A DNA stretch of 22,648 nucleotides from a virus. Shown piece by piece: positions 2,110 to 22,398 of this stretch. The stretch spans positions 1 through 22,648 of IMG/VR virus record IMGVR_UViG_3300049847_000065. The stretch is one strand, 5' to 3'. Position numbers and translations under genes: made by a program. A model generated the notes under the pieces. That model was not told the DNA's origin, ran no database searches, and was given only the letters and a program-made list of their open reading frames with translations. Position 1 is the first letter of the stretch. Each line of letters starts with the position of its first letter.

Positions 2110-3084
2110 ATGGCGGCACCATCTACACAAAATTACGGCCCCGGAAATGTTGACGAGCTACTGACTACGTCATTGGTCAACATGATTCCTGGTATTAGAG
2201 ACAACATCTTTAAGTCCAACCCTGTCTTCAAGTGGCTTTACGAAGGCAAGGGCGGCGGAAAGATGCGCAAAAAAGGCGGCGTGGCTCTTTCTCATGCGGA
2301 AATGTATGCGAAGAACACGACTGCTCTGGCGTATCAGCGTTACGATCAACTCGACGTTACTCCGCAGGATGGACTTACAAGAGATCAATGGTTATGGGCG
2401 CAGTATGCGGCTACAGTCACGATTGACGGATTCTCGGAACGCGTGGCGAATGCTGGCGATTCGAAACTGGAGGATCTGATGGAAGCCAAAAAGATGCAGG
2501 CCGAAGAAAGCCTGTCTCTCTTGCTCGAACAGGATATGTTCGCGGCTTCTGCGGTTTCCAAGCACATCGAACCCTTGACGACCATTGTGGCCACTTCCGG
2601 CACCGTGGGCGGCATTAATGGCACCACAAACAGCTGGTGGCAGGCTTGCGCGGCGACCGCTTCTGGCTCGTTCGCGGCTCAGGGACGTTCGGACATGACA
2701 AATGCGTGGAATCTGATCTCTGTTCAGAACCCCATCGGTGGTCCGGAGATGATCGTCTCGGATCAGACTTCGTTCCAAGCGTATGAATCGTCCTTGGTTG
2801 CTCAGGAACGTTTCACCGACAACAAAATGGTCGATATCGGAATTGAGAATCTGAAGTTTAAATCCACTCCTTGGACGTGGAGCCCTCAAGCCACCTCCGG
2901 CGTGATTTATCTTCTGCATTCAAAGGGTATTGAATTCATTGTCAACTCTGACACTGACTTCCTCACCACTCCATTCGTGACTCCGACGAACCAGGACGCG
3001 CGGACTGCCAAGATTCTGTTGGCTTGCTCGCTCACTACTGGAAATCGGCGCAAGAATGCGAAACTGACTGGCGTTACCGCCTAA
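2110..3084 (+). CDS. Major capsid protein (probable HK97 fold)
   Basis: A 324-residue protein behind a strong AAGGAG site. The N-terminal region (about residues 10-50) runs DELLTTSLVNMIPGIRDNIF and then a Gly/Lys-rich loop (GKGGGKMRKKGG) like the flexible E-loop of HK97-type coats. A long helix around residues 115-145 (SKLEDLMEAKKMQAEESLSL) matches the spine helix, and the C-terminal half has the mixed alpha/beta pattern of the P- and A-domains (GPEMIVSDQTSFQAYESSL, KFKSTPWTW). Length is in the usual 300-350 range. The scaffold just upstream and small decoration-type genes just downstream support the call. It forms the icosahedral shell. The exact coat family cannot be fixed without a search. 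Confidence 0.85.
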   Translation: MAAPSTQNYGPGNVDELLTTSLVNMIPGIRDNIFKSNPVFKWLYEGKGGGKMRKKGGVALSHAEMYAKNTTALAYQRYDQLDVTPQDGLTRDQWLWAQYAATVTIDGFSERVANAGDSKLEDLMEAKKMQAEESLSLLLEQDMFAASAVSKHIEPLTTIVATSGTVGGINGTTNSWWQACAATASGSFAAQGRSDMTNAWNLISVQNPIGGPEMIVSDQTSFQAYESSLVAQERFTDNKMVDIGIENLKFKSTPWTWSPQATSGVIYLLHSKGIEFIVNSDTDFLTTPFVTPTNQDARTAKILLACSLTTGNRRKNAKLTGVTA

Positions 3085-3410: not shown

Positions 3411-3866
3411 ATGTTAATTCAGCAACTCAATAGAACAGACGCGGAAAAGATTCAGATCGTAGTGAAGAACGTCGACGGTGGCGGTTCCATCACGACTGGC
3501 TTGGGCGCGGCCCTTGTCCAGACGGGTGCTTCCATTGACGGCATCAGCGCTGTCCGATCCACGGCGGCCCTTTGGAAGGGGTTTGTCGGAGTGTCTCAGC
3601 AGGACATTGCGATCAACGGGTTCGGCCTCGTGACGGCATGGGGATTTGCCAACTCAGTGGCGATCTCTAACGTGGGAACTTCCATCACTGTGACGGCTGG
3701 CGATTACCTTCGCCCCGGCGCGGCGGCTGGTACGTTCTTCAGCGGTCAAGCGGCGGCTGAAACCCTGTCGACTCTTCTCTATCGTTACGTTGTGGGAGCT
3801 ACGACGGCTGTAGCGATCTCAGCGGTGACTGATGGTGGAGTGTCTGGGTTTGTCCGAGGTCTGTAA
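3411..3866 (+). CDS. Probable capsid decoration or other small virion protein (151 aa)
   Basis: The ATG is preceded by AAGGAGAT at the right distance. The product is rich in Ala, Gly, Val, Thr and Ser, almost free of charged clusters, and shows repeated short beta strands (EKIQIVVKNVDGG, AISNVGTSITVTAGDYL, LSTLLYRYVVG). The phrase around GDYLRPGAAAGTFF resembles the kind of surface-exposed beta-barrel seen in head decoration proteins. It lies within the head gene block and is followed directly by the next start codon. The specific role is inferred; I do not recognise a named family. Confidence 0.65.
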   Translation: MLIQQLNRTDAEKIQIVVKNVDGGGSITTGLGAALVQTGASIDGISAVRSTAALWKGFVGVSQQDIAINGFGLVTAWGFANSVAISNVGTSITVTAGDYLRPGAAAGTFFSGQAAAETLSTLLYRYVVGATTAVAISAVTDGGVSGFVRGL

Positions 3867-4130
3867 ATGACAAAGGCCGAAATCGTGAACGCGGTGATGA
3901 AGGGTCTGGGGATGCGACCGACAAGGTACCTCTTGCGGTGGTCTCCCACGCTTCGGAACCCGTTCCATTTCGACCTTCTGGAAGTTATGCGGTGTGATTC
4001 CGACGGGGAGCTGATGACCTATAAAAAGGCTCAGTCTCCCCTCGGAAATCACGCCTCACATCGAATCAAAAGCCCCGGACGTTACAGTCTCTTGGAATTG
4101 CTGATGGTGCAGTTAAGAGTTATTCAATGA
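3867..4130 (+). CDS. Hypothetical protein (87 aa)
   Basis: The ATG abuts the preceding stop (TAAATG), has GAGGT about 6 bases upstream, and the stop overlaps the next start (ATGA). These junctions argue for a translated gene. The product begins with a short helix (MTKAEIVNAVMKGLGM) and is then Arg/Leu-rich and basic, with no clear domain. It differs in composition from the beta-rich virion proteins before it and from the enzymes after it. No function can be given. It marks the border between the head genes and the first sugar cassette. Confidence 0.6.
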   Translation: MTKAEIVNAVMKGLGMRPTRYLLRWSPTLRNPFHFDLLEVMRCDSDGELMTYKKAQSPLGNHASHRIKSPGRYSLLELLMVQLRVIQ

Positions 4131-4912
4131 ATCCAAAAGTAAACGCAGAGCAGTTAGAGCCAAAAGAAGAAGGCGTGATCCGCGTTCTGATTGGATTGCC
4201 TCATGAGGGCATGACGGGATCGGAAGCATACACGAACCGTTTGCACAACTTCATGCACTTGGGGAAATTGGAAGAGCGTGGCAGGATCAACAAGGAAACA
4301 CCCCGATTTGAGTTTATTCAGTACACCTGCGGACGGATGCACGTTTTCTTCGCGCGGGAAGAGATGGCGAAACAGGCGATTGCGGCTGATTGTGATTATC
4401 TCTACATGATTGACGACGACATGATTTGCCCGGATGATATGTTCGAGAAGCTTTACGCTGACGACAAGCCGATTGTCGCTCCGCTCGCTTTTACACGCAA
4501 CTTTCCACACAAGCCTGTCGTTTACGCCTGCATCGAGGGATGGGACGCGGTATCGAAGAAGGACTACTTCTCGAACTATGCGGTGATGAACTACCCCAAG
4601 AACAAGCTTCAGGAAGTGGACGCTGTGGGGTTTGGAGCGGTTTTGATTAAGACGGAAGTTTTGAAGGCTGTTGCGACTCCTCGGTTTATGTCGACGTGCG
4701 GGACGGGCGAGGATATTCTGTTTTGCTATAAGGCAAAAAAAGCAGGGTTTTCGACGTGGGTAGACACGCGCGTGAAGCTGGGCCATATCAGCCATCCGCT
4801 GATTGTGACGGAAGATTACGTAAACGCGCAGTGGAAAGCGTATGGAATGGAAGTTGAGAAGAATTACGGCGAACTCAAATCTAAAGAGCCTGTTTTGGTT
4901 CTAGGGGACTAG
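4127..4912 (+). CDS. Glycosyltransferase, GT-A type (261 aa)
   Basis: Probably transfers a sugar from a nucleotide-sugar donor. Residues 18-24 (IRVLIGL) form the first strand of the GT-A fold. DYLYMIDDDM contains a DDD (96-98) in the place of the metal- and nucleotide-binding DxD. VDAVGFGAVLIKTEVL (about 164-179) is the usual acceptor-side strand and helix, followed by GTGEDILFC with the catalytic-type ED at 195-196. The domain ends in WVDTRVKLGH (211-220), whose His is a common metal ligand. Length fits a single domain without membrane segments, so a cytoplasmic enzyme. It overlaps the previous gene by 4 bases and directly abuts the next. A glycosyltransferase at 20626 has the same order of motifs. 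Donor and acceptor are unknown. Confidence 0.85.
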   Translation: MNPKVNAEQLEPKEEGVIRVLIGLPHEGMTGSEAYTNRLHNFMHLGKLEERGRINKETPRFEFIQYTCGRMHVFFAREEMAKQAIAADCDYLYMIDDDMICPDDMFEKLYADDKPIVAPLAFTRNFPHKPVVYACIEGWDAVSKKDYFSNYAVMNYPKNKLQEVDAVGFGAVLIKTEVLKAVATPRFMSTCGTGEDILFCYKAKKAGFSTWVDTRVKLGHISHPLIVTEDYVNAQWKAYGMEVEKNYGELKSKEPVLVLGD

Positions 4913-6202
4913 ATGAATCCAATTGTCAGCGTCATCATACCGACATGGAACAATCCGCAGTTTCTCACTCCTTGCGTGAATTCCATCATAGCGACGGGAT
5001 TTCTGGATGGCCTTGGCGAGATCATCATCGTCAACAACGGCAAACAGCCAATCAAAGAAGAATTTGGACACATCGAAGGAATCACTGTTCTTGATCCCGG
5101 CGAGAACTTGGGATGGGAAGGTGGCCTTGCGCTTGGAGTAAAACACGCAAAAGCACCGTTTCTTTGTTTCCAGAACGACGACACGCACATCCCTGCGGCA
5201 AATGCCAACTTCTACAAAGAGCTTTTATATCCATTCCAAAATGCAAACGTAGCGGCGGTCGGGCCGACAACGACGGTCGCGGCGGGATGGCACAGCATCT
5301 ATCAGCGGTATCCCATACGGGAGCGGATCGAAGTGTCTTACCTCATTTTCTTCACGGTGATGGTGAGACGATCTGATTACGAGGCGTTGGGTGGAATTGA
5401 CACGTCCTGTCCAGGCGGAGACGACATCGATATGTCGATGCGGTTCAGGAAGGCCGGGAAGCATCTTGTGATTACTCCCCGCGCGTTCCTGATTCATCAT
5501 GGGTTTAAGACAGGCGAGCGCATGAACGGCGGGGCGCAAGTCGACGGCGGCTGGAACTCTTTGCAGATGCGCGACCGCACGAACCAGTATTTGATCCAGA
5601 AGCATGGATTCAAGTTCTACTGGGAAACGATTCGAGGCCTGAGCTACGGAACGCCTGAACCTTTAAAGGATTTAGAGGGCGACGTTGTGGCTTCGATGGT
5701 CAAAGGCGACGCTGTGCTTGAGTTGGGGTGCGGATACCGAAAGACGGTTCCGCAGTCGGTAGGCATGGACATCACGCCGAAAGGCGAACCCATCCCACAC
5801 GTTCCGGGCGGTGTTTCTGTCGCTGACGTGGTGGGTGACGTGTCTAAACCTCTTCCGTTCGACGAGATGTCGCAGGACACGATCATTTCACGGCACATTT
5901 TGGAGCATTGCGTAGATTCCGCTGAGACTTTGAAGAACTGGAACCGAGTCTTGAAAATCGGCGGTCGCATGATTATTGCGGTTCCGAATCAGGACATCGG
6001 GAACATGATCCCGCTAAATCCTGAACATGTACACGCTTTCACGCCGGCATCTCTTAAGAGCCTGATGGATCTGTGCGGGTTCAAGCAGATTGATTGCGTT
6101 GATCCGAAGAACGGCGTGTCGTTTGTCGGGTGTTACGAGAAGGTTCTGCACATGGATAGCGAATTAAACTGGAATGGCGTAGAGGTATCCGTTGGACATT
6201 GA
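4913..6202 (+). CDS. Fusion of GT2 glycosyltransferase and SAM methyltransferase
   Basis: A 429-residue two-domain enzyme. The N-terminal GT2 domain (about 1-220) has VSVIIPTWNN (5-14), GENLGWEGG (63-71), the DxD-like QNDD (87-90), a GIDTSCPGGDDIDMSMRFRK segment (161-180) in the place of the catalytic ED, and IHHGFKTG (194-201). The C-terminal class I methyltransferase domain (about 262-415) has the SAM motif VLELGCG (268-274), a GDVSKPLPF acidic-loop region (308-316), RHILEHC (327-333) and VLKIGGRMIIAVPN (346-359), which is Methyltransf_11-like. Such an enzyme could both add and methylate a sugar in a growing chain. The start abuts the previous stop, with AGGGGA upstream. No membrane segments. 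The frame is continuous, so the fusion is genuine in this sequence. Confidence 0.85.
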   Translation: MNPIVSVIIPTWNNPQFLTPCVNSIIATGFLDGLGEIIIVNNGKQPIKEEFGHIEGITVLDPGENLGWEGGLALGVKHAKAPFLCFQNDDTHIPAANANFYKELLYPFQNANVAAVGPTTTVAAGWHSIYQRYPIRERIEVSYLIFFTVMVRRSDYEALGGIDTSCPGGDDIDMSMRFRKAGKHLVITPRAFLIHHGFKTGERMNGGAQVDGGWNSLQMRDRTNQYLIQKHGFKFYWETIRGLSYGTPEPLKDLEGDVVASMVKGDAVLELGCGYRKTVPQSVGMDITPKGEPIPHVPGGVSVADVVGDVSKPLPFDEMSQDTIISRHILEHCVDSAETLKNWNRVLKIGGRMIIAVPNQDIGNMIPLNPEHVHAFTPASLKSLMDLCGFKQIDCVDPKNGVSFVGCYEKVLHMDSELNWNGVEVSVGH

Positions 6203-6839
6203 CAGATTTCTAAAAGGGTATCTAAACGTCCTGCTAGAGGATAAGAAGGACTCTAAATTTGAGACTTTGCGTGTACTTTTTAACGGTCTTTCTGGAATAC
6301 GAACAGCGAAGCTCATCAATTTTGCTTCTTTGTGCATGGACGGCAATAACGAATTTTATTGTGAGATCGGGACATATAGGGGATACACGTTGCTGAGCGC
6401 GGGGTACGAGAACAGGTCTACGGTAGTAGGAATCGATAACGAGAAGCCTGAGTGGTGTTCGCCTGAACTCATGGATGTCAATGGATTACCAGACAGAATG
6501 AATAAGTATGAGCGCGTCAATTACAGATTTTTCAAGGAAGATTTCAGGAATGTAAAACTATCTCCCAATGTTGGAGTCCTATTTATTGACGGAGATCACA
6601 ACGCCAAAGAAGTCAAAGATGCGTTGGAATGGGCCAAGCCTTGTTTAGTGAAAGATGCTGTCGTGATTTTTGATGATGTGAATGTCCGTGATGTTGGGGA
6701 CGCGATTTTGGACTGGGCGAAGAACAATCCTAATGACGAGCTTATTTTTTACTCTAAGGCTTTTGAGTCGGAACGTGAAGGAACCATTACAAATCACTAT
6801 CTAGCGAACGGAATCGCAATTATGAGGCATCATGCTTAG
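6192..6839 (+). CDS. SAM-dependent methyltransferase (Methyltransf_24-like), TTG start
   Basis: A 215-residue class I methyltransferase. The SAM-binding motif is EFYCEIGTYRGYT (54-66), then VVGIDNEK (78-85), LFIDGDHNAKEV (130-141) with the DGDH typical of this family, and VVIFDDVN (157-164). It is related to enzymes that methylate sugars in glycans and antibiotics. The start is TTG at 6192: a stop in this frame at 6180-6182 leaves no room for an earlier start, and the first in-frame ATG would fall after the N-terminal helices. AGAGGT lies about 6 bases before the TTG, and the gene overlaps the fusion gene by 11 bases, so it is translationally coupled. Target unknown, presumably the same glycan as its neighbours. 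Confidence 0.8.
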   Translation: MDIDRFLKGYLNVLLEDKKDSKFETLRVLFNGLSGIRTAKLINFASLCMDGNNEFYCEIGTYRGYTLLSAGYENRSTVVGIDNEKPEWCSPELMDVNGLPDRMNKYERVNYRFFKEDFRNVKLSPNVGVLFIDGDHNAKEVKDALEWAKPCLVKDAVVIFDDVNVRDVGDAILDWAKNNPNDELIFYSKAFESEREGTITNHYLANGIAIMRHHA

Positions 6840-7860
6840 AATCGGAAACTACTTTGAGTCAAGGCTAGGCCGAAACGACGGGAACCCTCTTTATGTTCAG
6901 GCCTGTCTCAAGCGGATGCAGTATTACGGGCAGATTCTGCGTGGCGGGCCAGTCGATCAGGGGCTTTTGAGTTGGTTTGCTTCTAAAGAGCTTGATCCGA
7001 GAGCAGAAAAAGCCGCTAAAGACCTCTATAATAAGCGTGGCGAGACAGTCGAAGTCGATCACATCTACCCCGTCGGAGACATTTCTCCGTTTGGAATGTA
7101 CGATTTGAACATCCATGTCGACTGGGGAGAGGATGGACTGACTGGAATTCTGCCTTATACGCCATTTGAGACACCGAAACCGTTTGCGTATTGGGCTTCC
7201 GACACGCATATCAAGACGGGATCGATTGACAGCTACGATTACCGCTGTTCCGTCGCAAAGAAGGCTGATTTTGCCTTTGTAGCGCAGAAGAACGCGGTTG
7301 AACGCATGAAAAACGACGGTGTTGCCAATCCGATCTGGCTTCCCCACGCTGTAGAGCCGCAAGCCTACCCCAAAATAGAGCTTTTGACGAAGAAGTACGA
7401 CGTTTGCTTTGTCGGACACGTCAGTTCTCTCAATCGTGTTGATGCGCTAGACCGTCTTTTCAGGGAATTCCCGAATTTCTACTACGGACAGCGTCTTTTT
7501 GACGAAGCGGCGCGGAAGTTCGCGGAATCCAAGATCGTTTTCAACATCGCCATGACGGACGATATCAATATGCGCTGTTTTGAGGTGCTGGCAACGGGTT
7601 CTTTCCTTTTGACCAACTGGATACCTGGCATTGAGGACGTTTTCGAGGATGGGAAGCACATGGTTTTCTATCGGTCGTTGGACGAGATGGTGGAGAAGGC
7701 GAAATACTATCTGGCGCACGATGACGAGCGTGAAAAGATCGCGCAGGCGGGGTACGAAGAGGTTATTTCTAAGCACACCATCCAGCACAGAGTCAATCTG
7801 ATCTTGGATGAGTATTTAAAGACAAAACAGCCCGAGGAGGTTATCAATGCAGGCGTTTAA
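6832..7860 (+). CDS. GT-B glycosyltransferase, CgeB-like
   Basis: A 342-residue protein with two Rossmann-like halves, as in GT-B enzymes. The N-terminal half includes FAYWASDTHIKTG (118-130), a pattern seen in CgeB-family and GT4-like proteins. The C-terminal half starts at KYDVCFVGHVSSLNRVDAL (188-206). It contains the conserved donor-site segment DINMRCFEVLATGSFLLTN (244-262), with the Glu-containing FEVLA, and then a typical closing helix series (DEREKIAQAGYEEVISKHT). The start overlaps the upstream stop by 8 bases and GAGG precedes it; the 3' end overlaps the next gene by 14 bases. It completes the first sugar cassette with a fold different from the GT-A enzymes. Donor and acceptor are not predictable. 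Confidence 0.8.
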   Translation: MLRIGNYFESRLGRNDGNPLYVQACLKRMQYYGQILRGGPVDQGLLSWFASKELDPRAEKAAKDLYNKRGETVEVDHIYPVGDISPFGMYDLNIHVDWGEDGLTGILPYTPFETPKPFAYWASDTHIKTGSIDSYDYRCSVAKKADFAFVAQKNAVERMKNDGVANPIWLPHAVEPQAYPKIELLTKKYDVCFVGHVSSLNRVDALDRLFREFPNFYYGQRLFDEAARKFAESKIVFNIAMTDDINMRCFEVLATGSFLLTNWIPGIEDVFEDGKHMVFYRSLDEMVEKAKYYLAHDDEREKIAQAGYEEVISKHTIQHRVNLILDEYLKTKQPEEVINAGV

Positions 7861-8392
7861 GTTGGTCAATGCTGGATTCGTGGATAAGGTCATTATTTTC
7901 AATTCTTTGCCTGATTATCTGACGAAGAACATCCAAACCAGAGGGACGGACGGATTCCCCAGAGCATGGCCCAGGTTCTTAGCTGACATTGGAAGCACCC
8001 GGAAGGTCTACAAGACGGAAGATAGCGTTGATATGTCTCGTAATTGGACGACCAAAAAGACTCCGATTGGCGATGAGCCTTGTTTTTACGTTCTGCACTA
8101 CACCGACATCAACGCTGACAAAGAGGCATGGAGAGCGATCTGCGATTATCTCCGGGCTACAGTTGGGCCGGAAGTGCGTCTGAAAGAGAAGATTGAGGAT
8201 ATGGCGGTTGTTCTAGCGTCTGACCCGACTCAGCCCTTGTCCATCGATCCCGAAGATATCCCTGTGATTCCAGTCAAGACTGAAGCGGAAGCTCCAGTGA
8301 CGGAGACGGTGAAGCAGGGTGAAGTTATTCTGGTCAATGAAGCGGCTCCAAAGCGTCGCGGACGACCCAAGAAAGTAGCAGTGGAGGCATAA
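7847..8392 (+). CDS. Hypothetical protein with C-terminal AT-hook-like motif
   Basis: A 181-residue protein with GAGGAGG at ideal spacing before its ATG, inside the end of the glycosyltransferase gene. Residues 1-115 look globular, with mixed helix and strand (FKLVNAGFVDKVIIFNSLPD, EPCFYVLHYTDINADKEA). The rest is an acidic Pro/Val/Thr-rich linker (about 125-165) leading to a basic end with PKRRGRPKK, a match to the AT-hook core that binds the DNA minor groove. I do not recognise the globular part. It could be a virion protein touching packaged DNA or a DNA-binding accessory; the Pro-rich linker with a basic tail supports binding of nucleic acid but does not prove it. Confidence 0.65.
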   Translation: MQAFKLVNAGFVDKVIIFNSLPDYLTKNIQTRGTDGFPRAWPRFLADIGSTRKVYKTEDSVDMSRNWTTKKTPIGDEPCFYVLHYTDINADKEAWRAICDYLRATVGPEVRLKEKIEDMAVVLASDPTQPLSIDPEDIPVIPVKTEAEAPVTETVKQGEVILVNEAAPKRRGRPKKVAVEA

Positions 8393-8393
8393 C

Positions 8394-8744
8394 ATGGCAG
8401 ATAATAAGTACCGATTAACACAAGGAGTAGGAACAGTATCCAATGGCGCGGCGACGATTACTCTTATTGCCGCTCCGGGTGCGGGGAAAAAGCTACGCGT
8501 AACGTGGGGTTCTATTGGCGTGACTGTGGCGGCAACGGGTGGTGGTGGGAACGTTGTCTTAAAAGATGGTTCCAATAGTATCATCATCGCTTTTCCTGCA
8601 AGTTCCGTAGACAGTCACTACGTTGAATTCGGAGATGACGGGATTGTATTGCCTGAAAACAGTGCTTTACAGCTTGTGGCTGAGAGTGCTGTCACGGCTC
8701 AATGCACAGCTTATGCGGCAATCTCGGCGTTCATCATAGGCTAA
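8394..8744 (+). CDS. Small beta-rich virion protein (116 aa)
   Basis: GGAGG precedes the ATG, which lies one base after the previous stop. The product is a glycine- and valine-rich all-beta protein: TVSNGAATITLIAAPGAGKK, then KLRVTWGSIGVTVAAT, a Gly-rich turn, NVVLKDGSNSIIIAF, and GIVLPENSALQLVAES. This succession (value-added gas-like repeats of strand, turn, strand, with 'APGAGK' and 'LPENSALQL') is a common pattern of small phage structural proteins of unknown detailed role, often near decoration, connector or fibre genes. The stop overlaps the next start as TAATG. The virion location is an inference. Confidence 0.65.
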   Translation: MADNKYRLTQGVGTVSNGAATITLIAAPGAGKKLRVTWGSIGVTVAATGGGGNVVLKDGSNSIIIAFPASSVDSHYVEFGDDGIVLPENSALQLVAESAVTAQCTAYAAISAFIIG

Positions 8745-9673
8745 TGGCAACCTTCCTTACACTTCAGCAGGAACTGGCGGCGCAGTGTGGAATGGACGTG
8801 GCGATATCCAATGAAGCCACGCTGTTGAAACGATGGCTGAACAACTCACAGCAAACCATTTTGCGCTCGTTTGAGTGGCCTTTCCTCCGTAGTCCTACTC
8901 CCTTGGTCATTCAGACTGTGCCTGACATTACCTCTGGGACTGTAGCGACTACGGCGGGGAGTACGTCGATCACGTTCAGCACGACTCCTGTGGATTCCAA
9001 CGGGGCGAATGTGTCTGTGAGTGGGCGGTTCATTCAGACTTCATCGTCGAAGGATTTCTACAAGATCACGGCACACACATCAGGGACGACAGCGGCGACG
9101 CTTGAGATTGCGGCGATTTACACAGCGGCGGCGGCGACGTATACGGTACGGAAGCAGTATTACTCAACTTCCTCCAGTGTGGACAGAATCATTCAGGTTT
9201 TTCAGGACATTCTTCCGTATCAGCTTCAAGAAACAACGCCGGAATACTTCCAGTCCTTCAACCCCGGATTTCTGGCTAGTGGTACTCCGCGGATCTACTG
9301 CATGGCGGGTGTTGATTCTTCCGGGTATCCACAATTCCGGCTTTGGCCAAATCCTGACGCGGTGATTAACCTCCGAATTGATTATCTGACGGTCGCTACG
9401 GATATGTCTGCGGATGCGGACGTTTCGGTAATCCCCGCCAAGTGGCATACGACGGTTTTGATTGAAGGGGCGAAAACTCAGGCGTTTTCGTTCCTTGACG
9501 ATACGCGTGTTGTTGAGTCACGAAAAGCATTTGCGGATGGTATTGACGAGATGAAAACGGAGTATGAAAACAGTCTCCATCGTCATCGGGTGATGACATC
9601 GGCAGACAATCAGCCCGTTGGTGGGAATCTGGGGTATATGCCTTTACCCTTCAACTATCCAAGGAACAGCTAA
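8744..9673 (+). CDS. Head-tail adaptor protein (SU10-adaptor-like)
   Basis: The start chosen is the ATG at 8744, which overlaps the preceding stop (TAATG); the frame is open a little further upstream but only as a shadow. The 309-residue product begins with helices (LTLQQELAAQCGMDV, LLKRWLNNSQQTILRSFEWP). It has a beta-rich insertion (about 60-145, Thr/Ser-rich, SGTVATTAGSTSITFSTTPV) and ends in helices with IPAKWHTTVLIEGAKTQAF and a Glu/His-rich final helix. Helical ends with a beta insertion and a WP near residue 45 match adaptor proteins that bind under the portal in SU10-type short-tailed phages. The probable nozzle gene next to it agrees. This ring joins portal and tail. Confidence 0.75.
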   Translation: MATFLTLQQELAAQCGMDVAISNEATLLKRWLNNSQQTILRSFEWPFLRSPTPLVIQTVPDITSGTVATTAGSTSITFSTTPVDSNGANVSVSGRFIQTSSSKDFYKITAHTSGTTAATLEIAAIYTAAAATYTVRKQYYSTSSSVDRIIQVFQDILPYQLQETTPEYFQSFNPGFLASGTPRIYCMAGVDSSGYPQFRLWPNPDAVINLRIDYLTVATDMSADADVSVIPAKWHTTVLIEGAKTQAFSFLDDTRVVESRKAFADGIDEMKTEYENSLHRHRVMTSADNQPVGGNLGYMPLPFNYPRNS

Positions 9674-12224: not shown

Positions 12225-12410
12225 ATGAGCGAGAAGAACATCTTAACGCGTCCGATCATTGTTGGAGATATCGTCCTTGCGTCTCCTGCTACTCAAACGA
12301 CGGTCGGTGCGGCTGGTGGAGCGAGTGCGCTTCCGGCTACTCCGACAGGGTATCTGACGATCATGGTGGGGAACACGCCGTATGTGATTCCCTACTACGC
12401 GGTGTCATGA
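12225..12410 (+). CDS. Small hypothetical protein (61 aa)
   Basis: A short gene with GAGGTAGGG before its ATG; its stop overlaps the next start (ATGA). The product has an N-terminal strand (ILTRPIIVGDIVLASPA), a Gly/Ala-rich flexible middle and a final hydrophobic strand pair (GYLTIMVGNTPYVIPYYAV). The end of the sequence, with G-x-x-Y-V-I-P-Y-Y, resembles short phage proteins found next to fibre genes. Function unknown. Confidence 0.55.
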   Translation: MSEKNILTRPIIVGDIVLASPATQTTVGAAGGASALPATPTGYLTIMVGNTPYVIPYYAVS

Positions 12411-12922
12411 TTGAAGCTCAAGCCATCATCGACAGCCCCCTCTTCAAGCCAAAGTCTCAGGTTCGCTTTGAGCTGTTCAAGGAGATCCCGCTTGGACTGG
12501 CCCATTCGATTGAAAAGGCGGTTCAGGACTTCATTGAAACGTCGCATTTGCCGGAAGGCGTTGACGCTAAAGGGTTCTACTACCAGACGCTACAGGCCAT
12601 CGCCAACGCGTCGGTTCTGCGTGGGACTGGGGATTTGTGGCTGGGTGTGCTTGACGGGGAGTTAGTGAGCTATGTTCTGGGGAATGTGAACAACGACTAC
12701 GACGGACGTCTTAACTATCTCGTTACTCAGGCGTGGGTGCGGAAGGATCAAAGAGGTCAGAAGTGGGTGAAGTTAGCGTGGGCGAAGATTCGGGAACGGG
12801 CAAAGGCGTGTCTTTGTCAGCACTTCTCGATCATTTCAAGCAGGGGCATGACGGCGGCGTATTGCAGATTTCTCGGTAAAGGGTTCAGGCCTTACGCCGA
12901 AATATTGAAAGCGGAGATTTAG
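12407..12922 (+). CDS. GNAT-like acetyltransferase
   Basis: A 171-residue protein coupled to the previous gene. It has the GNAT layout: the middle strand region WLGVLDGELVSYVLGNV (78-94), then strand beta4 with AWVRKDQRGQKWVKLAW (109-125). In that segment V-x-x-x-x-R-G-Q-K-W matches the acetyl-CoA pyrophosphate loop (Q/R-x-x-G-x-A/K). It ends with FLGKGFRPYAEIL (155-167), equivalent to the 'GF' strand common at the end of these enzymes. A GNAT gene beside tail or ejection genes is seen in several phages, where the target is usually unknown. An acetylated virion protein or a host protein are both possible. The fold assignment is moderate; the target is not inferable. Confidence 0.65.
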   Translation: MIEAQAIIDSPLFKPKSQVRFELFKEIPLGLAHSIEKAVQDFIETSHLPEGVDAKGFYYQTLQAIANASVLRGTGDLWLGVLDGELVSYVLGNVNNDYDGRLNYLVTQAWVRKDQRGQKWVKLAWAKIRERAKACLCQHFSIISSRGMTAAYCRFLGKGFRPYAEILKAEI

Positions 12923-16017: not shown

Positions 16018-16066
16018 TTTGGCGGGTTTTTCAATGGGTCTTTTAGCTGAAAGTAGAGGGATTTAA
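15968..16066 (+). CDS. Candidate small basic protein (32 aa)
   Basis: A 33-codon ORF that ends in TAATG, exactly overlapping the start of the next gene, the same junction style as elsewhere in this operon. AAGG lies about 9 bases before its ATG. The product starts with a basic patch (KKRSRSASS) followed by a short hydrophobic stretch (YPILAGFSMGLLA), suggesting a small membrane-associated peptide. It fills most of the only sizeable gap in this region. It is too short for a family call, and it contains a weak hairpin (16013-16018 with 16033-16038) followed by TCTTTT that could also be a partial terminator. Confidence 0.4.
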   Translation: MKKRSRSASSIPKAYPILAGFSMGLLAESRGI

Positions 16067-16338
16067 TGGCTATAGCTTACAACGCAGTAACCGTCAGCTC
16101 GACAGCAACACTTATCAAAGGCGCAAATAACGCCAGACGTGGGATTCAGGTCTACAACAATGGGAACAATATCGTTTATGTTGGGCCTGACAGCAACGTT
16201 ACGATTTCTACAGGTATTCCAATCCTTCCTCAATCGCTCTATGAAACATCGGGAGAAAAGCAGGGATGGCGCGGGAGTGTTTACGGGATAACTGCCGCTT
16301 CAACCTCGGATTGCAGGTTCTTTGAATGGGAAAACTAA
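16066..16338 (+). CDS. Small beta-rich phage structural protein (90 aa)
   Basis: The ATG overlaps the stop of a short upstream ORF (TAATG). The protein shows a known small phage pattern: VTVSSTATLIKGANNARRGI, then QVYNNGNNIVYVGPDSNVTI, a Gly/Pro turn (STGIPILPQSLYET), then GWRGSVYGITAASTSDCRF. The alternation of strands with N-N-G-x-x-x-V-Y-V-G-x-D and a final Trp/Glu gives a small beta barrel found near tail and fibre genes in many phages. Exact role unknown. The 3' end overlaps the large fibre gene by 13 bases, so both are likely made together. Confidence 0.65.
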   Translation: MAIAYNAVTVSSTATLIKGANNARRGIQVYNNGNNIVYVGPDSNVTISTGIPILPQSLYETSGEKQGWRGSVYGITAASTSDCRFFEWEN

Positions 16339-19300
16339 AAAGACTTCTTTCTATTGGGTGCTGTTTAGCGACCCTCACGACACCCCTTTGGGCACCTATC
16401 TCCAATAGATTAAATATCAGATCCGAGAATGGGGTTGTAGACACATACCCATATCAGGCTAGGTTCACAAACGGGACAGTAACGGACAATGGTGACGGGA
16501 CTGTTTCCATCAATACGGCAGGATCTGGTGGCGGTGGTGGTTCCTCCTCTCTCCAAGTCACACGGTCTGGGACACAGATCTCAAGTCCTACAGCTTCTAT
16601 AAACTTTTACAGCGGAGACTTTTTATTGTCTTTGGCAGGAAGCGCGACCTCGCAGATATATCTAAATCCAGCCACAACGAACTATATCCAGAACACTTCT
16701 GTTCTCCAATCCGGCGCAACCTTCTACGTGTCGAGTGGGACGGTGGCAGGTCTTTTTACAGCTTCTACGGAAACTGTTAATGGTCAACTCAATGTAGGAG
16801 GCCCCATTGTAGGGAATGGCGCATATCTTCAGAACGTTCCAATCATGTCGCCATCATCGACGGCTCCATTCCCCGGACCTACTGCCGGATATTTGGACAT
16901 AACACAGTATTACAACACTGTCACAGGCGCAACGGGTGGATTTCGAGTGGGTGGAACTCAGACGCTTTCAAGGCAAGGAAGCACGATTTTAGTTGGGAAT
17001 GCTGGTTCTGGTGTAGGGGCTTCAAGCACGATCTGCATAGGGGATAGCTCTTGCTCAAATCTTGATGCTGGCGGGCTTCGTTCGACAGTCATTGGGGCTG
17101 TAGCGGCTCAGGCCGATTTAGCAGAGGATAATACCTGTATCGGTTACAACGCTTGCGGTGATACTACGGCCAATCGACAAACTCTAATCGGTGCTTTTTC
17201 TGGGGCTTCGCTTACTAGCGGGAGTGCCAATACTGGTATAGGATTCAATACTATCCCCATAGCGACTACAGCCGATTCCAATGTTTGTATAGGAAACAAC
17301 GCCTGCGACCTTTTAACTACGGGTTCAGAGAACATGGTTATGGGGAATACCGCTGGGGCTGATATTACAGTTGGCGTTAGGAATACGTGCCTAGGTGGTG
17401 GTACCGGATCAGTTCAGTCGTGTACAGGGATTATTACAGGATCAAGCAATACGGCTGTAGGGAATGGGTCTTTAGGGAACATCCTATATACAGGAGCGGA
17501 GTCAGCTAATACCACAATCGGCTATAAAGCGGCCGTCAGTGCAGGGGTGAATAATGCCGTTGCTATCGGGTACAACTCTGTAGCTACTTCCTCATATACG
17601 ATGATGTTAGGTGGGACTGGGAATGATGGCGTTCGCGTCATTATGACGACGATGACAGTTTCCAGTGGATCGGTGTCTAGTCTTTATGTTCCTACGCTTG
17701 CCTCCGGCCAATGCGTTCAAACAACTACTGGCGGTCAATTAACAGTTACTGGTTCAGCTTGTGGCTCTGGTGGCGGTATGACTGCCGGAGCAACTTACTA
17801 TGTTCAGGTCAGAGACACGCTCCAGACTGGTGCGACCTTCTATGTTTCAAGCGGTACTGTTCAATCAGAACTTAATATCGGAGATGGGGTTCACGACGGC
17901 CTTGGAACCTTCTCGTTTGGCGGGAATACCTATAACATTCTTGGTTCCAGTACTCCCGGTTCAGCTGGCCAATTCCTCGTGCTTTCCAGTACGCGAACTT
18001 TTACTTACACCTCAAATGTTACTGCCGCCGGGGATAACCTTGGCAATGGAACAGGATCGTATGGCGTAGCAACAACGACAGGCGGATTTACTGGTGCGGC
18101 AGGTGTAAACGTCACCTACGGAATCGCCGTGGGTTCAATGACGGCCTCATCCGCTACGGTGTCAGGTCAGATCGTTACAACGGGCATTACGGTAAATGAA
18201 TTGACCGCTTCAAGGCCCGTCGTTTCGGACTCCAATAAGAAGCTGGCGACTGGCCTGATTGACCTCGCAAGCGCAAATTATGTCGTAAATAACCTTCCCG
18301 TCACAAACCTAAACAGCGGGACAGGGGCTACCAGCTCAACTTTCTGGCGCGGGGACGGGACATGGGCTACACCGGCAGGGGGAGGCGGATCGTCTTCTCT
18401 AGCGGTGGCGAACGGAATCTCGACTTACGCCGGGCCTACGGTATCGAGTCCTACCGCCATCATCAACTTTGACAACGCCACATTCGTCGGAGCGTTGACG
18501 GGGAGCGCGACCGCGTTCATGACGCTAAACAACTCATCAGTCACGTTGCAGGGCAATCAATTTAACACGGCGAACAAGCTCGTCCAACTCAATGGTTCAA
18601 CTCAACTCCCGGCGGTATCAGGGGCCTTGGTCACGAGCCTAACGGGAGCTAACATCGCTACAGTCATTCCGTCCGCGGTGCTTCCTTCCACGGTGGCTTT
18701 TATCACGTCAACGCAGACTTTTAGCGGGGGCAATAGCTTCATCAGTCCTAGTGGTGTGGCTGTCACGTTCGGGGTCACGGCTTCGAGTGCGGCCTTGTCG
18801 TCTGCGACGATATCGGGTCAAACGGTCACCACCGGAATCACAGTCAATGAATTGACAGCCTCTCAGTTCGTGGTATCGGATGCCAATAAGAAGCTCGCCA
18901 GTTCATTAAACGGTGCCACGCTCACGACGCTGACAGGCGCGAATATCGCCACCCAGATACCGTCTACTGTCCTGCCTTCGACAATCGCTTATACAGTCTC
19001 CACGCAGACTTTTAGTGGATATAACAACTTTGTCGGCTCTTCAACGTTTACAGGGAGTGTCTGGGTTTCCACCTCCATCCTATTAAGTGGAGCCATCGGC
19101 ACAAATGGACAGGTCTTAACTACGGGTGGGCCGGGAACAATCCCGACTTGGACAACTCCAACGGCTTCCGCATCGCCCGGTGGTGTTAAAGGGAACGTCC
19201 AATACAACGACGGTTCTGCCATTCAGGGAGCCACGATGTTTAATGTGTGGACTTCCTCTATCGTTCTTTCTACGGGTGGAGCGGCCAGTCAGGAAGTCTA

Positions 19301-19685
19301 TACTTCAACGCTGAACGTGAAAAGCTCATTTACGATCACAGGAATCAGTGCCGTTGTCACAAATTCTTCCTTTACGTTCCTTGCCACTTCCCCTGCTCAA
19401 TTTGTTGCTAATCAAAACGATTACGCCATAGGCATGGGAGTATTTTTCAGACTCAGCACGGATGCCCAGCGGGATTTGACAGGGATTTCGGGTGGGTCTG
19501 ATGGTCGGATGATTATCATTTCAAATGTGGGATCTTTCAATCTGGTCATTAAAAATCAGAGTGCGAGTAGCGCGGCGGCCAACAGAATTATCACAGGGTT
19601 TGGGGCGGATTACATCATGGCCCCAGACGATACAGTTCAGTTTATTTATGACAACACGACGCAACGGTGGAGGTTCTTAGAATGA
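16326..19685 (+). CDS. Large tail fibre / adhesin with signal-peptide-like N-terminus (1119 aa)
   Basis: Probably a trimeric receptor-binding fibre. Residues 1-23 look like a signal peptide: basic start (GKLKR), hydrophobic core with CC (LLSIGCCLATL), then TPLWA. A Gly/Ser linker (about 68-75) is followed by a beta-rich module. Residues about 239-440 carry repeats such as NTCIGYNACG, NVCIGNNACD and NTAVGNGSLG, spaced like the head of YadA-type trimeric adhesins. Around 669-683, SSTFWRGDGTWATP is a hallmark of phage fibres. Two modules are duplicated (593-644 with 810-861; 772-801 with 869-898). The last ~110 residues (DLTGISGGSDGR, NVGSFNLVIKNQSAS, TQRWRF) match a common C-terminal fibre domain. 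I see no S74 chaperone. Its start lies in the end of the previous gene. Confidence 0.8.
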   Translation: MGKLKRLLSIGCCLATLTTPLWAPISNRLNIRSENGVVDTYPYQARFTNGTVTDNGDGTVSINTAGSGGGGGSSSLQVTRSGTQISSPTASINFYSGDFLLSLAGSATSQIYLNPATTNYIQNTSVLQSGATFYVSSGTVAGLFTASTETVNGQLNVGGPIVGNGAYLQNVPIMSPSSTAPFPGPTAGYLDITQYYNTVTGATGGFRVGGTQTLSRQGSTILVGNAGSGVGASSTICIGDSSCSNLDAGGLRSTVIGAVAAQADLAEDNTCIGYNACGDTTANRQTLIGAFSGASLTSGSANTGIGFNTIPIATTADSNVCIGNNACDLLTTGSENMVMGNTAGADITVGVRNTCLGGGTGSVQSCTGIITGSSNTAVGNGSLGNILYTGAESANTTIGYKAAVSAGVNNAVAIGYNSVATSSYTMMLGGTGNDGVRVIMTTMTVSSGSVSSLYVPTLASGQCVQTTTGGQLTVTGSACGSGGGMTAGATYYVQVRDTLQTGATFYVSSGTVQSELNIGDGVHDGLGTFSFGGNTYNILGSSTPGSAGQFLVLSSTRTFTYTSNVTAAGDNLGNGTGSYGVATTTGGFTGAAGVNVTYGIAVGSMTASSATVSGQIVTTGITVNELTASRPVVSDSNKKLATGLIDLASANYVVNNLPVTNLNSGTGATSSTFWRGDGTWATPAGGGGSSSLAVANGISTYAGPTVSSPTAIINFDNATFVGALTGSATAFMTLNNSSVTLQGNQFNTANKLVQLNGSTQLPAVSGALVTSLTGANIATVIPSAVLPSTVAFITSTQTFSGGNSFISPSGVAVTFGVTASSAALSSATISGQTVTTGITVNELTASQFVVSDANKKLASSLNGATLTTLTGANIATQIPSTVLPSTIAYTVSTQTFSGYNNFVGSSTFTGSVWVSTSILLSGAIGTNGQVLTTGGPGTIPTWTTPTASASPGGVKGNVQYNDGSAIQGATMFNVWTSSIVLSTGGAASQEVYTSTLNVKSSFTITGISAVVTNSSFTFLATSPAQFVANQNDYAIGMGVFFRLSTDAQRDLTGISGGSDGRMIIISNVGSFNLVIKNQSASSAAANRIITGFGADYIMAPDDTVQFIYDNTTQRWRFLE
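18102..18257 (+). repeat. Fibre repeat A, copy 1
   Basis: A 52-codon unit (residues 593-644 of the fibre) that matches the unit at 18753-18908 without any gap. Shared core: TTGITVNELTAS, then VVSD, then NKKLA. Both copies have exactly 156 bases. The DNA has diverged mostly at synonymous positions, so the duplication is old or under protein-level selection. Confidence 0.75.
18639..18728 (+). repeat. Fibre repeat B, copy 1
   Basis: A 30-codon unit (residues 772-801) starting LTGANIAT and ending STQTFSG. It matches 18930-19019 with no gap and only a few amino acid changes (VIPSA versus QIPST; VAFI versus IAYT). Confidence 0.75.
18753..18908 (+). repeat. Fibre repeat A, copy 2
   Basis: Second copy of the 156-base unit A, at residues 810-861. 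It lies between the two copies of unit B, giving the order A, spacer, B, A, B. This suggests that a larger A-B block was duplicated and that the stretch between A1 and B1, with the RGDGTW motif, was inserted or retained. Confidence 0.75.
18930..19019 (+). repeat. Fibre repeat B, copy 2
   Basis: Second copy of the 90-base unit B at residues 869-898, directly after repeat A copy 2, with the same 30-codon length as copy 1. The nearly shared end ACGCAGACTTTTAG(C/T)GG is conserved even at DNA level. Confidence 0.75.
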
Positions 19686-20626
19686 TTAGAGGGCTTGGCG
19701 TATCGAATCTTGGTAACACGTCAGGGAATAGCGGGACTCAGATCGGGACGTACGTTCTCCAGGGAGGGAACAACGTTACTCTTTCTCAGGTCACAGGGGC
19801 TTCTGGCACAAACACAGTTATTATTTCAGCTGGCGGCCCGATGGGGAGATACTATAGCAACCTCCCTGTTTATGACAATTCTTCAACCATTGCTTATTTG
19901 CAATCCACTTCCCATGTTGTCCCTTTCGTTGTTAACGAACAGCTCTCATGTGATTTCATAAGGATTTTTTGGGTTGGGAACGTTCTTGCAGCATCTACTA
20001 CTGCGGCTACGACAGGAGCGGCAACTTTCAGTTGTGGGTACACGAAAACGCACAACTTTGTTCTTTACTCTAGAGGATCAGGAGCAAATTCTTCGTCTTT
20101 GCAGTACTACTATTCAACTAGCTTCGTGGAACAGTTCTCAAACAATATCGCTTGTGCCGCTAACAGCACTCAATTTAGTTATTCCAATAGATACACATAC
20201 CCATGCAGCACAGGAAGCACATTGTTTACAAACGACTATTCATCTAGTGCGGCATCCATTAACCAGAATTCGGCAAGCGCAACCGCTTATACAGGTACAA
20301 AAATGATTGATTTCCAGTTTGCTACGACGCTGGCAGCGCAGGGATGGTGGCTTGCTTATGGTGGATCAACGAGCACAGCTACCCAGTCTGCAGGAACAAC
20401 AATTGGTCTGCGTAATGCTGTCACGTTTAATCCTGTATTTTTGACTCAGACTGCTCTGTCTATAGGAGTCCTCGGAGCGGCAACGACAAACAACCTAATG
20501 CCCCAGTATGGAGTAGGTTCATTCACAACGGCTGGCGGCGGAACAACGTCTAGCATTCCGCTCGCCAATATTACGCATAGTGCAAATCATCCGATTATGT
20601 ATTTCCAGTTAATGAGAACGAACTGA
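19682..20626 (+). CDS. Receptor-binding / fibre-associated protein (314 aa)
   Basis: The start chosen is the ATG at 19682, which overlaps the fibre stop (ATGA) and has GGAGG about 8 bases upstream; an earlier GTG at 19667 lies before that binding site and is unlikely. Residues 19-53 (GTYVLQGGNNVTLSQVTG, then ASGTNTVIISAGG) are a pattern common in tail adhesins. The remainder is beta-rich, with many Ser, Thr, Tyr and Asn (SSLQYYYSTSFVEQF, WWLAYGGSTSTAT) and few charges, like a surface-exposed tip. Six or more Cys residues occur, more than usual for a fibre. The two proteins are co-translated, so this could be the tip or a partner of the large fibre. No enzyme motif is seen. Confidence 0.7.
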   Translation: MIRGLGVSNLGNTSGNSGTQIGTYVLQGGNNVTLSQVTGASGTNTVIISAGGPMGRYYSNLPVYDNSSTIAYLQSTSHVVPFVVNEQLSCDFIRIFWVGNVLAASTTAATTGAATFSCGYTKTHNFVLYSRGSGANSSSLQYYYSTSFVEQFSNNIACAANSTQFSYSNRYTYPCSTGSTLFTNDYSSSAASINQNSASATAYTGTKMIDFQFATTLAAQGWWLAYGGSTSTATQSAGTTIGLRNAVTFNPVFLTQTALSIGVLGAATTNNLMPQYGVGSFTTAGGGTTSSIPLANITHSANHPIMYFQLMRTN

Positions 20627-21366
20627 TGAAGCCAGAGCTAATTATTCAGGACATTAAAGGGTCGAATAATGCGCAGATGGAGAAAACGATTGCCCGTCTT
20701 ATAAAAGGCGGCTCGTGGAAGAAACAGAGGATAATCGTTATTATCCCATCGGCTGATATGATTTCAGCCAAGGTCGCTCTATCTCTATGGAATCTAGCTT
20801 TCCCTCCGAACAATGGGATTGTCAGGATATTGGCGCAAGGTCTAGAAGTTGGCGATGCCTATTCCTCGGCGATTGAAAGTATTCTGGAGCATCCGGAGCT
20901 TAAAAACTGGGAATATGTTCTGACCGTAGAGTCGGATAATATGCCCCCATCTGATGGCGTAATTCGATTGGTCGACCGGATGGAGAACCACCCAGAGTTC
21001 GCATGTATTGGTGGTCTTTACTTTACGAAAGGTGCCGGAGGAGTTGCCCAGATATGGGGAGATCCTAATGATATGCCACTGAATTATCGCCCACAGATCC
21101 CGGATCCGAATGGCGGACTAAAGGAATGTTGTGGGACAGGGATGGGGTTTAATCTATGGCGATTGTCCATGTTCAAGGACAAGAATATCGCAAGACCACT
21201 TTTCGAGACATTTAATGGCAAAGACAACAAGGGTCTCGGGACTCAAGACCTTACATTTTGGACAAAGGCGAGGAAGTTCGGATATCGATGCGCCATTGAT
21301 TGTTCTGTTCGCGTAGGACATTACGACATGAAAGGGGATTTCGGGCCTCCTGACACGCTTTGGTGA
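20626..21366 (+). CDS. Glycosyltransferase, GT-A type (246 aa), similar to the one at 4127
   Basis: The ATG overlaps the previous stop (ATGA). GT-A features in order: RIIVIIPSADM (35-45), VLTVESDNMPPSDG (98-111) with the metal-site ESDN at 102-105, CIGGLYFTKG (127-136), CCGTGMGFNLWRL (168-180), LGTQDLTFWTKARKFGY (204-220) with the QD in place of the ED catalytic pair, and CAIDCSVRVGHYDM (222-235) with the GH at 231-232. The same order and spacing occur in the enzyme at 4127, so the two probably share ancestry. There is no membrane segment. It begins the second sugar cassette; a methyltransferase follows after the HNH gene. Substrate unknown. Confidence 0.8.
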   Translation: MKPELIIQDIKGSNNAQMEKTIARLIKGGSWKKQRIIVIIPSADMISAKVALSLWNLAFPPNNGIVRILAQGLEVGDAYSSAIESILEHPELKNWEYVLTVESDNMPPSDGVIRLVDRMENHPEFACIGGLYFTKGAGGVAQIWGDPNDMPLNYRPQIPDPNGGLKECCGTGMGFNLWRLSMFKDKNIARPLFETFNGKDNKGLGTQDLTFWTKARKFGYRCAIDCSVRVGHYDMKGDFGPPDTLW

Positions 21367-21383
21367 CCATATAGTAGTATAAT
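21350..21383 (+). promoter_or_regulatory. Possible promoter for the HNH gene
   Basis: A perfect -10 hexamer TATAAT lies at 21378-21383 in an A/T-rich spacer just after the glycosyltransferase stop, 25 bases before the HNH ATG. The -35 is poor: CTGACA at 21350-21355 is too far (22-base spacer) and TTGGTG at 21360-21365 too near. A weak or phage-polymerase promoter is possible. It would let the endonuclease be made without the operon transcript. Confidence 0.35.
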
Positions 21384-21407
21384 GCTCATATTCATTAGGA
21401 GGTGGAT

Positions 21408-21881
21408 ATGGGTAAATATAAGCCACACCAACAGGCGTTTGATGAGAAGATCGTTAAAACAAATGAAGGATGTTGGAGATGGAATGGAGCTAAAAACCAT
21501 GATGGTTATGCAATGCTCAAAGACGAGATCGCACATCGGTGGAGTTACCAAAGATATATCGGGCCACTTGTTCAAGGTCTTGAGATCGACCATGTTTGCG
21601 GAGTGCGTGACTGTGTTAACCCGAAGCATTTGGAGCAAGTTACGCATCTCGTCAATATCCGACGTGCCATTGCTAAGGGGTCTTATGATAAATGCAGGAA
21701 CTATCTCGGAGATTTTCAGTCTCGTAAAAAGCACTGCAAAAGAGGCCACCCTTACTCTGGAGACAACCTTAAAATTGAGATTTATAAAGACATCGTTGCT
21801 CGGCGTTGCAGAACCTGTGAAGATATGAAATTCAAGAAATACAAGAGGAGTATTCGTGAAAAAGAAACAGAAAGAACCTGA
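21408..21881 (+). CDS. HNH endonuclease (free-standing)
   Basis: The start chosen is the ATG at 21408, five bases after a perfect AGGAGG (21397-21402); an upstream in-frame GTG at 21402 overlaps that site and is rejected. The 157-residue product has the HNH core LEIDHVCGVRDCVNPKHLE (58-76) with DH at 61-62, N71 and H74. A helix AHRWSYQRYIGPL (42-54) precedes it, and a second metal site is formed by C110-x3-H114 and C134-x2-C137. These are the marks of the HNH_3-type enzymes, which cut DNA and are often mobile homing nucleases in phages. It has an apparent -10 box, looks richer in A and T than neighbours, and overlaps the next gene by 26 bases. It may be an insertion in the second sugar cassette. 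Confidence 0.85.
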   Translation: MGKYKPHQQAFDEKIVKTNEGCWRWNGAKNHDGYAMLKDEIAHRWSYQRYIGPLVQGLEIDHVCGVRDCVNPKHLEQVTHLVNIRRAIAKGSYDKCRNYLGDFQSRKKHCKRGHPYSGDNLKIEIYKDIVARRCRTCEDMKFKKYKRSIREKETERT

Positions 21882-22398
21882 ACTGCTTAAACTCGACCTT
21901 GGCGCAGGGGATAACCCATCACCGGGGTTCAAAGGGGTTGATAAATATGCTGAGAAGGCTGATTACAAGTTTGATCTTTTCAAGTTTCCATGGCCTTTCA
22001 AGGATGGTTCTGTGGATGAACTCCACTCAAACCAGTTCTTCGAGCATATCCCCCAAAATCTCCGAATCCCATTCATGGACGAGTGTTACCGGGTTCTTAA
22101 AGTAGGGGCGAAGTTCACTGTAATCGCTCCCTATTACACGTCGATGCGGGCGATCCAAGACCCGACGCACGAATGGCCCCCGATCTCTGAGGCGACGTTT
22201 CTTTACTTCAACAAGAAGTGGCGTGAAGACAACAAGCTGACGCACTATCTGGGCAAATGCGACTTTGACTTCACGTACGGGTACAACATTTCGGCTGAGT
22301 GGAACGCACGAAACGATGAGGCCAAGATGTTCGCCATCAAACATTACAACAACGTCGTGACGGATATTCAGGTTGTTCTGACGAAAAGGGCGAAATGA
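21856..22398 (+). CDS. SAM-dependent methyltransferase (Methyltransf_11-like), GTG start
   Basis: A 180-residue protein starting at GTG with AGAGGAG five bases upstream, inside the end of the HNH gene. It shows the class I methyltransferase motifs LLKLDLGAGDN (10-20), VDKYAEKADYKFDLFKFPWP (28-47), NQFFEHIP (59-66) and VLKVGAKFTVIAPYY (80-94). It is the same class as the C-terminal domain of the GT2 fusion at 4913. The rest contains Trp-rich aromatic segments (DPTHEWPPISEA, KKWREDNKL) that may bind the acceptor. It is probably the methylation half of the second sugar cassette, with the glycosyltransferase at 20626. Target unknown. Confidence 0.8.
   Translation: MKKKQKEPELLKLDLGAGDNPSPGFKGVDKYAEKADYKFDLFKFPWPFKDGSVDELHSNQFFEHIPQNLRIPFMDECYRVLKVGAKFTVIAPYYTSMRAIQDPTHEWPPISEATFLYFNKKWREDNKLTHYLGKCDFDFTYGYNISAEWNARNDEAKMFAIKHYNNVVTDIQVVLTKRAK

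Follow-up and report, generated by a model that had tools for sequence, protein, structure and literature searches.

A putative capsid decoration-plus-glycosylation module in the head gene region of uncultured phages

Viral glycosylation systems and the locus in the window

Only a few systems with glycosylated phage particles have been described. The mycobacteriophages Che8, Corndog and Myrna encode glycosyltransferases (GTs) that glycosylate their own capsid and tail proteins (Freeman et al. 2023, as cited in PMC12363180 and PMC13313380), and the portions of these papers considered here mention that related Rhodococcus phages have a methyltransferase next to a GT (PMC12363180; PMC13313380). 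The coat protein of STIV is glycosylated, and the portion of the source considered describes A197 as essential and suggests that it glycosylates this protein in the cytoplasm, with the acceptor unproven (PMC10551542). In PBCV-1, A064R (a GT-GT-methyltransferase protein with O-methyltransferase activity) and a second methyltransferase, A061L, build the methylated glycan of the capsid protein (PMC9614988). The locus considered here lies in a single IMG/VR virus record, IMGVR_UViG_3300049847_000065, a fragment of 22,648 bases (the whole of which is called the window), in which a gene for a putative capsid decoration protein (3411–3866) precedes four sugar-modifying enzyme genes (4127–7860). The enzyme block is inherited together with the decoration protein, so the phage heads probably carry a methylated sugar chain on their outer face. 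We consider the region probably (about 0.6) to be a capsid decoration-plus-glycosylation module, one that equips the decoration protein with a short glycan of varying methylation.

The sequence-only reading of this DNA had put the enzymes forward as its best candidate for an undescribed system. As a description of the whole this is too strong, because virion glycosylation by viral enzymes is already known from mycobacteriophages, and methylated capsid glycans from chloroviruses; the enzyme set, the fusion of a GT2 enzyme with a methyltransferase, the link with a decoration protein and the exchange between two cassette classes are new. As in the mycobacteriophages, the proposed targets of the phage GTs are the phage's own virion proteins, but the enzyme set and decoration-protein link of the window are not described in the portions of those papers considered, and a tblastn search of INPHARED (50,697 phage records) with the fusion and the separate Methyltransf_24 protein returned no match. 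STIV A197 is a viral GT-A with nearly the same fold as GTA1, the first enzyme of the window's cassette, whereas STIV is an archaeal virus with an unrelated capsid type and a single GT, and no methyltransferase is reported in the portion of the source considered (PMC10551542). PBCV-1, compared by description only, likewise combines GT and methyltransferase domains in a single polypeptide and has a second methyltransferase besides; it is, however, a eukaryotic giant virus with an N-glycan on its major capsid protein (MCP), and A064R carries two GT domains and a methyltransferase in one chain, whereas the fusion in the window has one of each. The fusion may nevertheless work like A064R. The Manatee Spring phages ctyzp037 and ctvy9321 (MW202711, MW202496) have a relative of GTA1 (hhalign probability 99.5%) after the MCP and a small open reading frame (ORF), 5' of the tail genes, but this is their only GT, with no annotated methyltransferase or CgeB-like gene adjoining, and the small ORF is not detectably of the same decoration family. 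The window's decoration protein shares its fold with other phage decoration proteins (phi29 gp8.5 base, HFTV1, TW1, T1, Pam3), and its gene adjoins the MCP gene; it differs in having no detectable sequence family and in the attached glycosylation cassette. In Mx8, BUCT555, ppBjS10J-1 and ctMlz233, cultured or named relatives by MCP, the stretch from the MCP to the connector genes has no annotated GT. A literature search for phage decoration or cement proteins that carry glycans returned nothing relevant, which is weak evidence given its limited coverage. The features of the region are as follows.

2110..3084, + strand: major capsid protein, upstream neighbour of the module (phrog_9953, 7e-43; profile matches the solved MCP 6j3q)
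3411..3866, + strand: putative decoration (cement) protein of the capsid, 151 aa; candidate for the glycan acceptor, and first gene of the module (predicted fold, position)
3867..4130, + strand: small ORF of 87 aa, conserved (column identity averaging 68% across 11 aligned relatives)
4127..4912, + strand: GT-A glycosyltransferase GTA1, 261 aa, proposed initiating transferase (predicted fold, phrog_1574, conserved motifs)
4913..6202, + strand: GT2 glycosyltransferase (about residues 1–240) fused to a class I S-adenosylmethionine (SAM) methyltransferase (about 265–410), 429 aa (Pfam)
6192..6839, + strand: Methyltransf_24 protein, putative optional accessory methyltransferase, 215 aa, TTG start (Pfam, 5e-12)
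6832..7860, + strand: CgeB-like GT-B glycosyltransferase, 342 aa (PF13524 Glyco_trans_1_2, 1e-30)
7847..8392, + strand: conserved ORF directly 3' of the module (homologues at the same place in 27 contigs)
8759..9673, + strand: SU10-type adaptor (connector) protein, right-hand flank (PF24175, 2e-12)

Every main gene of the window is on the + strand. The order from 5' to 3' is the portal end, a scaffold-like gene, the MCP gene, a small gene, the decoration gene, the 87-aa gene, the four enzymes, the 7847–8392 ORF, a small gene, the SU10-type adaptor and a phrog_3287 virion protein. Profile searches and AlphaFold2 (AF2) models confirm the four transferases that had been read from the sequence at 4127–7860, all on one strand. 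Each of the four abuts or overlaps the preceding stop, as had also been noted, and so do the neighbouring ORFs 3867–4130 (which itself overlaps the GTA1 start) and 7847–8392. Their placement between head genes (the MCP) and connector genes (the adaptor and phrog_3287 protein) likewise holds, and judging from this gene order the region is probably a late operon. The limits of the proposed unit have to be redrawn: the enzymes are present, but the unit begins at 3411 with the decoration gene and the 6192–6839 gene is optional, leaving the decoration gene and three GTs as the fixed set.

GTA1 has only sub-threshold matches in Pfam (Anp1, 25.6 bits against a cut-off of 28.8); it matches phrog_1574 at 3.5e-16, as well as glycosyltransferase PHROGs. 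Its AF2 model (predicted local distance difference test, pLDDT, 90.8) has a clear GT-A fold with a DXD-type metal site. Among compact folds it most closely matches STIV A197 (2c0n; Z 18.0, root-mean-square deviation 2.3 Å over 163 residues, 23% identity), and further structural matches include LH3 and COLGALT1 (collagen hydroxylysine GTs), mimivirus R699 and Mnn9. The motifs DDD 96–98, GED 194–196 and H220 are kept in 81–82 of 82 homologues. The fusion protein matches Glycos_transf_2 (3e-12) and, also above the Pfam cut-off, Methyltransf_11/23; NDD 88–90 and GDD 169–171 of its GT2 part are present in all 65 full-length homologues. The CgeB-like protein scores 107 bits on Glyco_trans_1_2, against a cut-off of 25.

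The 3411–3866 product was modelled by AF2 from a 64-row alignment (pLDDT 86.9). It matches decoration, cement and head-fibre-base chains over a Z range of 8.5–11.4, among them HFTV1 (8qsy, 11.4), T1 (10.3), Sf11 (10.3), TW1 (8.9), XM1 (8.9), Pam3 (8.8), the phi29 head-fibre base gp8.5 (8.7) and FCWL1. Neither the window copy nor any other member tried of this family, which occurs in about 80 contigs, has a PHROG or Pfam match, and a PDB sequence search with the protein gave chance-level matches only. Comparison by hhalign with the proteins after the MCP in Mx8, ctMlz233, ppBjS10J-1 and BUCT555 revealed no homology, although this was a weak test, with single sequences on one side. Fold and gene position suggest that the protein sits on the MCP shell.

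Inheritance and exchange of the decoration gene and cassette

Searching IMG/VR with the MCP returned 15 contigs, and all those extending far enough carry the GT-A, GT2-methyltransferase and CgeB-like genes at the same place. Scans with the fusion and the CgeB-like protein brought the total to 87 contigs (GT2 in 84, GTA1 in 83, the decoration gene in 79, CgeB in 78 and the MCP in 76), many of which are cut at an end. The contigs are metagenomic, so that their counts do not equal independent events, and some are perhaps near-duplicates. Extra scans by the decoration protein and the MCP were made because the 87-contig set had been collected via the enzymes; with either protein alone, a GT was present in every contig extending well beyond the decoration gene (L177 ends just past it). 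A search for the cassette in phage relatives, advised by the sequence-only reading, thus found it in about 90 IMG/VR contigs, with the order MCP, decoration gene, GT-A, GT2(-methyltransferase), CgeB-like GT in common. The ORFs are not chance ones, since they are conserved in these contigs with intact active-site motifs. In these uncultured phages the cassette of three transferases is retained with hardly an exception, and it is bound to a single decoration protein, of a previously unannotated family.

The same reading had held that relatives placing the block in a host locus would count against it, and none did: the block is phage-borne. A scan of 84,980 bacterial and archaeal species genomes with an alignment of the fusion found no such fusion and indicated no host; the best matches were partial (about 24–33%) and mostly generic GTs, and a host-locus origin was rejected.

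Within the phages, the genes of the region fall into two blocks. In 20 contigs with all six genes, pairwise identities of the MCP and adaptor correlate at 0.91, and those of the decoration, GTA1, fusion and CgeB genes at 0.81–0.90 with one another (0.84–0.90 for the decoration–GT pairs), whereas correlations between the blocks are only 0.53–0.64. The MCP–decoration correlation is 0.48–0.56. The MCP–adaptor pairing persists even though the cassette separates the two genes. In a set of 53 contigs, decoration–GT partial correlations given the MCP are 0.63–0.69, with none of 300 permutations as high, whereas the decoration–adaptor value is 0.18. Individual trees agree. The decoration and GTA1 trees each unite L031 with L052 (support 99 and 96, respectively), a pairing that the MCP data reject (log-likelihood 412 worse), and the MCP grouping of five contigs is rejected by the decoration and GTA1 data (p 0.0008 and 0.003, values that are indicative only, because the test groups were picked after the trees had been viewed).

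A second cassette class was found in L176, the MCP of which is 51% identical to that of the window, whereas its decoration protein is only 27% identical. Here the cassette consists of a GT4-like GT-B, a separate methyltransferase and a divergent GT-A. Scans for additional members of this class yielded one further contig. L200 has the same enzyme set as L176, with decoration proteins 67% and enzymes 47–54% identical between the two but MCPs only 33% identical. In these two contigs, decoration type and enzyme type switch together and the MCP type does not.

The three GTs are near-constant across contigs, with the CgeB-like gene in nearly all that are long enough, while the methyltransferases come and go. 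The separate Methyltransf_24 gene is absent in L003, lies 5' of GT2 in L018 and L057 and 3' of GT2 in L053 and L101, and a gene of this type is found 3' of CgeB in L002 and L010 (further Methyltransf_24-type proteins occur in L002, L010, L019 and L039); a homologue of 6192–6839 at another position is also present in L094. The methyltransferase domain is not always fused to GT2, being missing in about 12 contigs and encoded by a separate ORF in L067. The sugar backbone therefore appears to be fixed, with a capping that varies. Some contigs have additional GT-like or formyltransferase-like genes, and others HNH-like endonucleases. A formyltransferase-like gene (PF00551, 2e-11) lies within the cassette of L062 at 8247–8885, hinting at formylated sugars in some relatives.

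These patterns are consistent with an exchangeable "glyco-decoration" module, in which phages would swap a decoration protein and its own glycan enzymes as a unit, with a fixed three-transferase backbone, interchangeable methylation, serotype-like variation of the head and at least two enzyme sets, each tied to its own decoration type. We put this forward tentatively, at slightly less than even odds. With a candidate acceptor, two enzyme sets provided by nature and methylation that varies among the phages, both the chemistry of phage-head glycans and their purpose become open to test.

Proposed mechanism, acceptor and alternative explanations

Soluble phage enzymes would use host nucleotide sugars and SAM to glycosylate the decoration protein in the cytoplasm. 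By analogy with STIV A197, GTA1 would most likely attach the first, protein-linked sugar, the GT2 domain and the CgeB-like GT-B would lengthen the chain, and the methyltransferases, both the fused and the accessory one, would cap hydroxyls, as A064R and A061L do for PBCV-1. The product would probably be a variable coat of the phage head, serving in adherence to surfaces or matrices or in hiding from recognition. What the analysis shows directly is which genes are present, how their products are predicted to fold, that the catalytic motifs are intact, that gene order is conserved and that decoration protein and cassette are inherited together; enzyme activity, order of addition, specificities, sugar identity, acceptor residue and benefit are inferred. 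The conserved Ser, Thr and Asn positions of the decoration protein (N20, T28, S41, N69, S82, S86, T93, S111 and S137) are only candidates for attachment.

Several points weigh against this assignment. The glycan and the enzyme activities are predictions from the sequences. The decoration fold also resembles domains of fibre and tail proteins, so the label "decoration" rests on fold together with adjacency to the MCP. The second class consists of two contigs only, and the CgeB data alone do not reject the MCP grouping (p 0.29). The decoration gene and the GTs are adjacent, and linkage alone can give co-transfer and explains part of the pattern, although the MCP is about equally close on the other side of the decoration gene and does not follow.

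The sequence-only reading had proposed a glycan that is methylated, probably built of several sugars, and carried either by a virion protein or by the host surface; this is supported, and the comparative evidence favours the virion, and in it the decoration protein. If the decoration gene were merely linked, the cassette might glycosylate another virion protein, such as the MCP, the 87-aa protein, the 7847–8392 product or a tail fibre. Glycosylation of tail tube as well as capsid proteins is known from mycobacteriophages (PMC12363180), the glycosylated protein of STIV is its MCP (PMC10551542) and the small ORF 3867–4130 is situated within the module. Nevertheless, the MCP and adaptor track each other rather than the GTs, the 87-aa ORF is undetected in many GT-bearing contigs and the 7847–8392 ORF persists in L176 despite replacement of the cassette, so that we regard another acceptor as unlikely. 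Modification of a host surface glycan late in infection, for superinfection exclusion or progeny release, seems more doubtful still. Conversion cassettes with which phages alter surface glycans are known, and the GT2 part of the fusion resembles bacterial polysaccharide and teichoic acid GTs, but no membrane-spanning partner of the kind used in host-surface glycan export (as in Gtr-type systems) and no flippase is encoded within the cassette, none of its proteins having a strongly hydrophobic 19-residue segment (hydropathy maxima ≤1.57). The position and inheritance of the cassette are, moreover, bound to a capsid gene, and its type changes along with the decoration type.

Glycosylation of hydroxymethylated bases by phage GTs is well known (PMC9614988), and the enzymes could in principle produce glycosylated or methylated hypermodified bases in phage DNA. 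This is very improbable for a cassette in the structural region adjoining a decoration gene. PF00303 (thymidylate synthase/hydroxymethylase) was found in none of 18 cassette-bearing contigs of 38–44 kb, in a search that covered this one hypermodification route; the window itself is a 22.6-kb fragment. On this result, DNA modification was rejected. Glycosylation of the decoration protein remains the preferred explanation.

Neighbouring genes and minor observations

The 87-aa ORF was detected in about 35 contigs, often but not always with the decoration gene. The 7847–8392 ORF is retained in L176, where the cassette is replaced. The MCP frame is split into two ORFs about 180 bases apart in L012 (10001–11164) and L013 (3153–4316), with the same first piece in L016 (4641–5204); this may reflect a small insertion, an intron-like element or a frameshift.

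Further sugar-related genes lie after the fibre genes of the window, in a stretch (20626–22398) with a GC content of 46%, against 50% for most of the window: a second GT-A-like gene at 20626–21366 (weak phrog_1574 match) and a Methyltransf_11 gene at 21856–22398, with an HNH endonuclease gene (21402–21881) between them. Matches to this second GT in 18 relatives are weak and apparently at the GTA1 position. The window also encodes a 1119-aa repeat-rich, fibre-like protein (16326–19685) with a signal-peptide-like start (MGKLKRLLSIGCCLATLTTPLWA) and YadA-head-like repeats; relatives of this protein and of 16066–16338 are located 5' of the adaptor in L012, and secreted-protein-like starts occur in L176 ORFs at 11108 and 11488. 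A weak match to GNAT acetyltransferases (PF00583, below the cut-off) was found at 12407–12922, and ppBjS10J-1, BUCT555 and ctMlz233 have an annotated GNAT or acetyltransferase gene at a similar place, 3' of the tail stabilisation gene.
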